Source: a virus
Virus record (IMG/VR): IMGVR_UViG_3300009544_000019
Location: 1 to 34,163 of that record
Length of the DNA: 34,163 nt
Reading direction: 5' to 3' (one strand)
Below, one piece after another: positions 27,738 to 29,489 of the stretch. The position numbers were made by a program, and so were the translations under genes. Within the stretch, counting starts at the first letter, position 1. The number at the start of each line of letters is the position of its first letter. A model generated the notes under the pieces. That model made no database searches. It saw only the letters and a program-made list of their open reading frames with translations, and was not told the origin of the DNA.

Positions 27738-27979
27738 ATGCGGTTCAACCAGGTTTCGATGTCTGTCTGATCTGCATCATCATCAGCAATCACGCCCACG
27801 TCATCTAAGATAGCTTCCAGGCTTACCGACTGATTCAATCCTTCCGCTATCAGATCCACAGCCAACCGGCTTTGCGATATCCCCTGCATATGGGAAGCAG
27901 CATCTAAACGGGACTTGAGGCCGACCGGCAAACGCACGACTAGCGCCTGTTTGGGTTCACCCTTGCTCTGGTACTTCAT
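27734..27979 (-). CDS. Ribbon-helix-helix DNA-binding regulator (81 aa)
   Basis: I chose the ATG at 27979, preceded by AAGGA; a TTG 21 bases upstream is less likely. Residues about 9-45 read like an Arc/MetJ-type RHH domain: strand QALVVRLPVGLKSRLDAASH followed by helix SQSRLAVDLIAEGL. The C-terminal tail is acidic (DDVGVIADDDADQTDIETW). It is the first gene of the leftward operon and faces the divergent promoter region, so it probably represses itself and the rightward early operon by binding repeats there. This is inference from fold and position. Confidence 0.7.
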   Translation of the reverse strand: MKYQSKGEPKQALVVRLPVGLKSRLDAASHMQGISQSRLAVDLIAEGLNQSVSLEAILDDVGVIADDDADQTDIETWLNRI

Positions 27980-28112
27980 TTTCTTTTCCTTTGTTTTCAA
28001 CGGTTTGTAACTATATTCACCTAGTCTGTTAAATAATTGTTAATAACCTATTGACCTATTTGTGATATCACCTTATCTATTAGGAGTAAGTTAATCAAGA
28101 GAGGAATCAGAA
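27980..28112. promoter_or_regulatory. Divergent early control region (133 bp)
   Basis: AT-rich gap between the divergent RHH and early genes. Rightward, TTGACC (28051-28056, five of six) lies 17 bp before TATCTA (28074-28079, weak). Leftward, TTAACA-17-TACAAA gives five and four matches. Possible operators are a perfect palindrome GTGATATCAC (28062-28071) inside the rightward spacer, a tandem ACCTATTG/ACCTATTT (period 8), and repeated GTTAAT-type words. The ribosome site of the first early gene is AGAGGA. Confidence 0.6.
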
Positions 28113-28367
28113 ATGAAATTCAGTAAATCAGGTCGTGCGTTCGAGGCATTGGAAAAGATCGGCGCACCTGTGTTCGTAAATGAGGACGGGATGTTCATCA
28201 GCGGTGAAGACAACGGTGCCGTTTGCTGGGCTGACTACTACTGCGAGTTTCCAGGCGGTGCCTTGGATGACTTCGGAGTGAACAACAAGATCAACGCGAT
28301 ATTGGAGAAATTCGGATTGTTTGCTGAATGGAAGAACCCAGGCGTGTTGGGTGTTTACGGAGATTGA
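28113..28367 (+). CDS. First early protein, hypothetical (84 aa)
   Basis: ATG with AGAGGA seven bases upstream. The product begins MKFSKSGRAFEALEKIGAPV, has an aromatic centre (CWADYYCEFPGG) and ends PGVLGVYGD. It is acidic, has two cysteines near the middle and no membrane segment. No family is recognised. As the first gene of the early operon it is a candidate host-takeover or anti-defence protein, but only position supports this. Confidence 0.65.
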   Translation: MKFSKSGRAFEALEKIGAPVFVNEDGMFISGEDNGAVCWADYYCEFPGGALDDFGVNNKINAILEKFGLFAEWKNPGVLGVYGD

Positions 28368-28370
28368 GTT

Positions 28371-28400
28371 AGCAGTGCGCCTTCCGAGGCGCATCACTAA
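28371..28400 (+). ncRNA. Intergenic RNA hairpin element, copy A
   Basis: AGCAGTGC...GCATCACTAA surrounds a perfect 7-bp stem TGCGCCT (28376-28382) and AGGCGCA (28387-28393) with tetraloop TCCG. It lies between the first and second early genes, 20 bases before the second start. Copy B at 28915-28944 keeps the flanks and the stem while changing paired bases together, which argues for a functional RNA structure. Confidence 0.7.
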
Positions 28401-28419
28401 ACCAAGCAAGGAGACTACA

Positions 28420-28620
28420 ATGGCTAAAATGCAAAAAGACGCTGCGATGTTGGACTTGTTCGACAATGGTGCAGCAAGCCAGGTTGGTGAGCGTCAGGCT
28501 GACATCGAGGATATCATCTTCGAGAAAAGCTTGTTGGCTATGGTTCAGTCTGGCGATCAGGCTGGACAGGAAGCCTGGAGCAATGCGGCGAAAGCCGGTC
28601 AAGTAATGCGTATCTGTTAA
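28420..28620 (+). CDS. Early hypothetical protein (66 aa)
   Basis: ATG at 28420 preceded by AAGGAG. Begins MAKMQKDAAMLDLFDNGAAS, then an acidic helix (ERQADIEDIIFEKSLLAMVQ) and a short C-terminus QVMRIC. Probably helical; no family recognised. It follows hairpin element A and is separated by 12 bases from the next small gene. Confidence 0.6.
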   Translation: MAKMQKDAAMLDLFDNGAASQVGERQADIEDIIFEKSLLAMVQSGDQAGQEAWSNAAKAGQVMRIC

Positions 28621-28632
28621 GGAGAGAAAACA

Positions 28633-28911
28633 ATGGCGAAATCAATACAAGCACAAGCAGCGGCCCAGATCAAAGCTAAGATGAAGGCGGCAGGGTTCAG
28701 CCCTCAAGTTAGCAGCTTTAGCGCGTCGATGTGCAATGGAGTGCGTATTTACTGCAAAGAGGCTGACTTGCCTAACAAGGATCAAATCAACAAGATCTGT
28801 ATGCCCTACCAGCAAGGCCACTTTAATTCGATGGAAGATATCTACGAATACAGCAACATGAATGAGCAAGTCCCCCAGGTTAAGTTCGTTCAGATTGACT
28901 ATTTCGGTTGA
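28633..28911 (+). CDS. Early small protein, possibly LPD29-like (92 aa)
   Basis: ATG preceded by AAGGAGA. The N-terminal helix is A/K/Q-rich (IQAQAAAQIKAKMKAAGFSP), followed by strands with VRIYCKEADLPNKDQINKIC. The C-terminal part GHFNSMEDIYEYSN and VPQVKFVQIDY resembles small phage proteins carrying the LPD29-type domain also found fused in large polyvalent proteins. That call is tentative. Function unknown; it lies between the two RNA hairpin elements in the early operon. Confidence 0.65.
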   Translation: MAKSIQAQAAAQIKAKMKAAGFSPQVSSFSASMCNGVRIYCKEADLPNKDQINKICMPYQQGHFNSMEDIYEYSNMNEQVPQVKFVQIDYFG

Positions 28912-28914
28912 TTA

Positions 28915-28944
28915 AGCAGTGCAGCTTTCGGGCTGCATCACTAA
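28915..28944 (+). ncRNA. Intergenic RNA hairpin element, copy B
   Basis: AGCAGTGC...GCATCACTAA again surrounds a 7-bp stem, here TGCAGCT (28920-28926) and GGCTGCA (28931-28937, one G-U pair) with tetraloop TTCG. Compared with copy A, two pairs differ on both sides of the stem (G-C to A-U, C-G to G-C) and a third becomes G-U, so pairing is kept. It sits 18 bases before the next start. Confidence 0.7.
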
Positions 28945-28961
28945 GTCAAAAGGAGAATGCA

Positions 28962-29177
28962 ATGAATATGGCAGAACGTATGGCCGAGGCTAGAAAGATC
29001 TTGAGTGTAAGCCTGGAACAAAAAACAAATGAGTTCGGTGAGATCTATTACCGTGCCGAGTTTAATAACGGCGCTGATCTTGAACAGTTTTTCATTGACA
29101 CCTTGATGAACGTCAAAGGTTTCAGCAGCAAAGTAATCGGCAACACGTTGTTGGTTTTCGATAAAAACTACAGTTAG
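28962..29177 (+). CDS. Early hypothetical protein (71 aa)
   Basis: I chose the ATG at 28962 with AAGGAGAA just upstream; an earlier in-frame start would run through the hairpin. Begins MNMAERMAEARKILSVSLEQ, with strands FGEIYYRAEF and NTLLVFDKNYS at the end. Small alpha/beta protein, no family recognised. Followed after 10 bases by a 28-aa membrane peptide gene. Confidence 0.6.
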   Translation: MNMAERMAEARKILSVSLEQKTNEFGEIYYRAEFNNGADLEQFFIDTLMNVKGFSSKVIGNTLLVFDKNYS

Positions 29178-29187
29178 GAGAAAAACC

Positions 29188-29274
29188 ATGAAGGACTTTA
29201 TTAAAGATTCGATCGGCGCATTTTCATTGGTTGCCATCATTTACATGGCGCTAGTTTTCACGGGGGCGATGTGA
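29188..29274 (+). CDS. Single-span membrane peptide (28 aa)
   Basis: ATG with TTAGGAG upstream. The sequence MKDFIKDSIGAFSLVAIIYM continues ALVFTGAM, giving one hydrophobic segment (about 9-27) after a charged start. The stop overlaps the next start as TGATG. Coding is supported by the ribosome site and coupling. It could act on the host membrane or a membrane protein early in infection; that is speculation. Confidence 0.55.
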   Translation: MKDFIKDSIGAFSLVAIIYMALVFTGAM

Positions 29275-29489
29275 TGGGCAAGGTGAATGCGCTATTCCAG
29301 GACGCGATCGAAAAGCTTTCGGAGATCTGCCCAGAATGTGACGGGGACGGGTTGGTTGTTGTGGAGATCTACAGACCTCAAAGCTTTGATCGTGATGTCG
29401 GGTTCATAGATTGCGAAGATCCAACGCCGTGCGAACGATGCGCCGGCGAAGGTGTGATATTTAAGGAGGAAGACGACGATGAATATTAA
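29274..29489 (+). CDS. DnaJ-type zinc finger-like early protein (71 aa)
   Basis: I chose the ATG at 29274, which overlaps the previous stop. Two CxxCxGxG motifs are present, CPECDGDG (19-26) and CERCAGEG (53-60), matching the zinc-binding repeats of DnaJ. Together they can bind one Zn ion. There is no J domain. The C-terminus is a run of acidic residues (KEEDDDEY). Similar short DnaJ-finger proteins occur in phages, with roles unknown; protein or nucleic-acid binding is likely. The 3' end overlaps the next gene. Confidence 0.7.
   Translation: MGKVNALFQDAIEKLSEICPECDGDGLVVVEIYRPQSFDRDVGFIDCEDPTPCERCAGEGVIFKEEDDDEY

Follow-up and report, generated by a model that had tools for sequence, protein, structure and literature searches.

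A conserved UNCG-capped RNA hairpin at the 3' ends of selected early genes in a group of uncultured marine phages

Results

The early region and its two hairpins

This study focused on a 34-kb virus record (34,163 nt, referred to as the window) that carries capsid, portal and tail genes of podovirus type and shows distant similarity to the OM43 phage MEP301. From position 28113 onward there is a run of small genes, followed by a Mu Gam-like gene, and from this gene layout we infer that the two elements described here belong to an early operon. The features of the region are given in Table 1. The slot held by gene D is filled by many other families in relatives of the window. Gene C matches the Pfam family LPD29 below the cut-off (E 4e-5, 24.7 bits, cut-off 27).

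A sequence-only reading of the window had described two hairpin copies of 30 nt each, AGCAGTGCGCCTTCCGAGGCGCATCACTAA at 28371-28400 and AGCAGTGCAGCTTTCGGGCTGCATCACTAA at 28915-28944, and both were found exactly there. They are the sole matches to each other in the window at up to three mismatches (dinucleotide shuffles, 0 of 100), and the only hairpins on either strand that combine a stem of at least 7 bp with a UNCG loop. The ATG of the next gene lies 19 nt past the first unit (28420) and 17 nt past the second (28962). The changes reported within the inner stem, G-C to A-U and C-G to G-C on both sides and U-A to U-G, with pairing kept, are likewise correct. The 30-nt extent was placed rightly but is too short: UUGA, the strand in which the upstream gene stops, is base-paired to CCAA or UCAA right before the Shine-Dalgarno (SD) sequence. 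The UGA stop codons of gene A (28365-28367) and gene C (28909-28911) thus lie inside the UUGA of elements 1 and 2, respectively. A covariance model places element 1 at 28362-28412 (69.4 bits) and element 2 at 28906-28956 (73.4 bits).

Table 1. Genes, hairpin elements and Shine-Dalgarno sequences in the early region of the window
Feature	Position	Strand	Remarks
Gene A	28113..28367	+	84 aa; 3' end carries element 1
Element 1, full bipartite hairpin	28364..28405	+	UUGA to CCAA before SD; covariance model, fold, pair counts
Element 1 inner helix	28375..28394	+	GUGCGCCU-UCCG-AGGCGCAU; 7 Watson-Crick pairs and basal G-U
Gene B Shine-Dalgarno AAGGAG	28408-28413	+	3 nt past base of element 1; read from sequence
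Gene B	28420..28620	+	66 aa; downstream of element 1 in the window
Gene C	28633..28911	+	92 aa; carries element 2
Element 2, full bipartite hairpin	28908..28949	+	UUGA to UCAA before SD; covariance model, fold
Element 2 inner helix	28919..28938	+	GUGCAGCU-UUCG-GGCUGCAU
Gene D Shine-Dalgarno AAGGAG	28950-28955	+	directly past base of element 2; read from sequence
Gene D	28962..29177	+	71 aa, family D8; downstream of element 2

Structure and covariation

Minimum free energy folds of single copies give one long hairpin that takes up nearly the whole span from the upstream stop codon to the next SD. It consists of an outer helix (UUGANUUAR/YUAANUCAA), a 2x2 internal loop of constant CA/CA, and an inner helix capped by a UNCG tetraloop (GUGCNNNY-UNCG-RNNNGCAU), so that the duplex comprises 8 pairs, the 2x2 loop and up to 9 further pairs. 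The CA/CA loop, the basal G-U, the GUGC/GCAU pairs and the flanks are near-invariant, and only the middle stem pairs vary. That the loop and the outer strands hardly vary suggests that the sequence is recognised and is more than a plain barrier, or else that it spread recently.

The inner helix is fully paired in all 12 gap-free distinct copies, without a single unpaired cell. Two-sided changes occur at alignment columns 18-29 (GC/AU) and 19-28 (GC/CG/UG) and at columns 11-36 of the outer helix (GC/AU), while those at 21-26 are one-sided. The covariation score of 0.222 was reached by none of 500 shuffled alignments (0.123 +/- 0.017), which bears out the claim of an RNA hairpin with retained pairing and extends it to a family of about 50 copies. 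The switches at 11-36 and 18-29 appear in all four combinations in the alignments and therefore do not represent a single event. Covariation is solid for the inner helix, and thin as a count of events, the independent changes being few. The outer helix is less certain than the inner one: mismatches are frequent at columns 6-41 and 10-37, and those of its pairs that never vary are uninformative on their own. All copies are oriented in sense with their genes, and the UNCG loop and the G-U pairs exist on the sense strand only, which argues for RNA and against a DNA palindrome. UNCG was built into the search patterns, yet the copies reached through genes C and E alone all have it. An inner helix that is paired in every distinct gap-free copy, with two-sided changes and sense-only G-U pairs, therefore points to an element that acts as RNA.

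Distribution of the element

Copies were gathered by pattern scans of IMG/VR and by a homologue search with gene C, and after removal of duplicate loci they number about 50 in 40 IMG/VR contigs, forming one family. The covariance model, built from 11 distinct copies, recovers family copies on the sense strand and gave one or two strong matches in each of nine larger virus records that were scanned whole. A diverged third form, UUGAUCUUGUUCAGCGCCCUACGGGGCGCAUUGCUGGUUCAAC, follows gene C in four contigs (20.9-24.6 bits).

Elsewhere the searches were negative. The covariance model had no match in MEP301, CRP-13 or CRP-207, and blastn of the element against isolate phages returned chance matches to Streptomyces phages only. 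The pattern TTGATTNNGCAGN{10,30}ATCACTRA gave chance matches, and among the matches listed there was no new locus with the element as judged by stem pairing. A bacterial origin was rejected, as the strict pattern is unmatched in 84,980 bacterial and archaeal species genomes. Across everything searched, the element is confined to one phage group. The sequence-only reading knew of no named element of this kind, and Rfam searches agree: no family reached its gathering threshold, and the best match (E 0.3), to an unrelated miRNA model, scored 20.9 bits where 50 are required.

Association with the upstream gene

In 46 of 50 copies the UGA of the upstream gene lies in the 5' foot of the hairpin; in the other four, behind families E and G, the stop is a TAA 5 nt further on. 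UUGAUUU is kept in these four despite the shifted stop, and this strand is therefore not conserved merely as a stop codon. The SD follows the 3' foot immediately or within a few bases, and the distance from stop to start codon is 44-56 nt in nearly all copies.

Four gene families are followed by the element in 47 of their 48 gene ends in these phages: A in 12/12, C in 12/13, E in 20/20 and F in 3/3, counted over all contigs. It was never found after 17 other early-gene families (e.g., B 0/29, D8 0/20, D11 0/16), and family G provides one case (L149). Most contigs were reached through the element itself; the gene-based searches are free of that bias, and they found it behind C in 11 of 12 contigs and behind in-group E in all 10 that were readable. 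Genes A, C, E and F have no profile similarity to one another, which rules out a common ancestry of the tagged genes, and the link to the element is therefore not due to their common descent. The downstream genes, on the other hand, vary freely, with at least 12 different families. The element belongs to the upstream gene and not to the downstream one, which corrects the framing, proposed from the sequence alone, of the hairpin as a leader of a small downstream gene. A distinction between a gene tag and a slot boundary cannot be fully drawn, since C, E and F share one slot.

Among about 45 listed relatives of gene E in other phages, up to 58% identical, none has such an element, and the same is true of the relatives of gene A in CRP-13, CRP-207 and five other contigs. 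With E and most A homologues elsewhere lacking the hairpin, it is therefore not essential to those genes. What the sequence-only reading expected of homologous phages held for the stem, in that no homologous element breaks the inner helix, but not for presence, in that homologues of the neighbouring genes occur in other phage groups without the element. The tag is therefore peculiar to this group of phages and sits at the 3' ends of certain genes. In the phage DSS3_MAL1, a relative of gene A has an unrelated GC-rich, GNRA-capped hairpin, GGGCAGGG-GAAA-CCCTGCCC, between stop and SD (L126, 316-365); this single case hints that there the hairpin as such, rather than the present sequence, may matter.

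The only in-group C gene that lacks the element occurs in the L008/L140 contig. Its neighbour starts 9 nt past the stop and has no clear SD, which looks like a joint loss of hairpin and SD. Gene E is a member of a very large gene family in marine phages (at least 446 confirmed loci, including one in the Pelagibacter phage Mosig).

Gene exchange at the element

Contig L009, 94% identical to the window, lacks gene A together with element 1, and the gap is cleanly bounded by the start codons of A and B. Its D is diverged and C is replaced by other genes, yet all 58 nt of element 2 between UUGA and the start codon are identical; the same 58-nt element thus stands behind C in the window and behind the non-homologous E in L009. 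Identical elements are shared across families in 50 pairs (C/E 23, E/F 15, C/F 12), and in none between A and any of C, E or F. The unit of A plus element changes position or is absent among relatives. A podovirus contig (L014) shares only the A-element and B-C-element modules with the window, at about 80%, and its structural genes have no blastn similarity to the window. Since identical copies follow C, E and F, and L009 has the same element behind a different gene, the element also marks swap boundaries. Exchange is also seen at junctions without it, as with the accessory genes g24, g34 and g36, and it is therefore not required for shuffling.

The same early modules were seen in a second podovirus architecture (L014, L012, L021, L003, L006 and L008), where they adjoin terminase genes (L012, L014, L021) and/or lie beside minus-strand genes, with a RuvC-like resolvase in L003.

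Discussion

Possible roles of the hairpin

The element represents a previously undescribed structured RNA family in uncultured marine phages. Its genetic signature is clean, as it occurs at the 3' end of a few non-homologous genes and is absent from the same genes in other phages, which provides a natural experiment on the function of intercistronic hairpins and shows, in a concrete instance, one RNA element serving also as a boundary for gene exchange. Several readings were rejected. A Rho-independent terminator lacks its U-tract, the stem being followed by UCAAAAGGAG, and the sole terminator-like site in 27950-29300, at 29232, is separate from the element. No promoter-like sites were found in the same interval. 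Translational bypass or a frameshift fusion of the T4 gene 60 type does not agree with frame relations of 15/12/10 or with a downstream frame that is blocked in 19 of 37 cases. Insofar as sequence can decide, a terminator, a promoter and a bypass or frameshift signal are thus excluded, which leaves a role as RNA where the upstream cistron ends.

Tentatively, and with slightly less than even confidence, we favour a 3'-end stabilising or processing hairpin for the tagged early cistrons. The element would be a conserved RNA hairpin in the polycistronic early mRNA, closing the 3' end of gene A and of whichever of C, E and F fills the next slot. Its UNCG-capped helix may serve as a barrier, a processing point or both, so that the tagged cistron would gain a defined, stable 3' end of its own and be insulated from its neighbour downstream, whose SD is separate. 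The early RNase III sites of T7 play this role, as do other stabilising hairpins between cistrons. Since a patch of 45-58 nt is kept nearly constant at a gene boundary, homologous recombination there would swap the gene in front, probably as a side effect.

Cleavage by RNase III could be the means by which such a 3'-end hairpin works. As an explanation in itself, with the host enzyme cutting in or near the CA/CA loop and separating the cistrons as in T7 early mRNA, it is unlikely. The place between early genes and the build are similar (about 42 nt, with lower helix, internal loop, upper helix and tetraloop); the R1.1 site of T7, an early intergenic RNA of 60 nt, has a 4/5 internal loop (PMC6121014), and E. 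coli RNase III needs no more than a 12-bp stem and a tetraloop (PMC8708148). The loop of the present element is, however, 2x2 symmetric with just 8 continuous pairs above it, the alphaproteobacterial enzyme (S. meliloti) wants longer duplexes than that of E. coli, which would matter for an alphaproteobacterial host, and the near-invariant sequence would be left unexplained. The near-invariant positions, with only the middle pairs free to vary, together with the restriction to one phage group in everything searched, would fit an operator through which an RNA-binding protein of the phage or host regulates how the tagged cistrons are translated or degraded. Yet no candidate partner was found, limited divergence could equally account for the invariance, and the SD and start codon lie outside the hairpin, so that we regard an operator as quite unlikely. 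The hairpin might also bridge stop and SD by looping out about 40 nt, which would bring the stop beside the downstream SD for re-initiation by terminating ribosomes. The stop in one foot and the SD just past the other agree with this, as do the ordinary junctions of these operons, where stop and SD are adjacent (e.g., TAAGGAG), and T4 genes 25 and 38 close an SD-AUG gap with hairpins (PMC3014915). But the T4 hairpin lies between SD and AUG rather than ahead of the SD, ribosomes that terminate at the stop would open the outer helix, and the linkage is to the upstream gene and not to stop-start pairs, all of which makes a bridge very improbable.

Two further readings concern the exchange of genes. 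The patch could be mainly a site of DNA recombination, PeSL-like or a cassette site, whose conservation is shared homology without an RNA function. Gene exchange with clean borders at the element, identical copies behind C, E and F, the mobile or absent A-element unit, and modules shared at about 80% with a podovirus contig that is otherwise dissimilar by blastn are all consistent with this; against it, the compensatory changes, sense-only G-U pairs and UNCG loops point to RNA, and g24, g34 and g36 shuffle without any element. We consider it improbable that recombination alone accounts for the patch. Slightly more doubtful is a dedicated RNA 3' tag, by which unrelated accessory genes would join the early operon through gaining one standard hairpin that a specific factor of the phage or its host recognises; gene and hairpin would then form an exchangeable cassette, integron-like in logic but read as RNA.

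Comparison with known elements

The 3'-end hairpin favoured here resembles T7 R1.1-type RNase III sites in being an irregular hairpin with an internal loop between early cistrons, but it is shorter and near-invariant, has a 2x2 symmetric loop and a UNCG cap, and is tied to particular upstream genes. T4 has UUCG-capped intercistronic hairpins. These share the capped intercistronic stem, whereas the present element is bipartite, with a constant internal loop and flanks, and linked to certain gene families. Stop codons and initiation regions have hairpins at them or close by in T4 genes 25 and 38 and in the gene 60 bypass stem-loop as well, the latter with a stabilising tetraloop (PMC3014915); unlike these, the element is not between SD and AUG and has no fixed reading-frame relation. 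The promoter early stem-loops (PeSLs) of T4 are described as lying at gene boundaries and associated with gene shuffling (PMC4503421). An association with modular gene exchange is common to both, but here no promoter is in or near the element, there is no U-tract, and the phage is not T4-like. The extended start-associated sequences (ESAS) of cluster K mycobacteriophages are inverted repeats a short way ahead of the SD in small non-structural genes, limited to one phage group, linked to gene families, and present in 11-19 copies per genome (PMC3203893). In position, restriction and gene-family link they are alike, but ESAS goes with the downstream gene and the present element with the upstream one, at one or two copies per genome, and the 13-bp SAS GGGATAGGAGCCC at the start site is absent, with AAAAGGAGA and the like in its place.

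The early-operon leader

A weak recurrent match to the covariance model (17.3 bits, 70 nt) was seen at L005 4619-4688, with equivalents in many contigs, in the AT-rich leader upstream of the first early gene; it may be an inverted repeat of the promoter region. In the window, the leader at 28051-28079 contains a perfect palindrome, GTGATATCAC, flanked by the boxes TTGACC and TATCTA, which are 17 nt apart. The palindrome is also present in L009. A divergent 88-aa gene lies opposite, and the arrangement resembles an early promoter under the control of a repressor.
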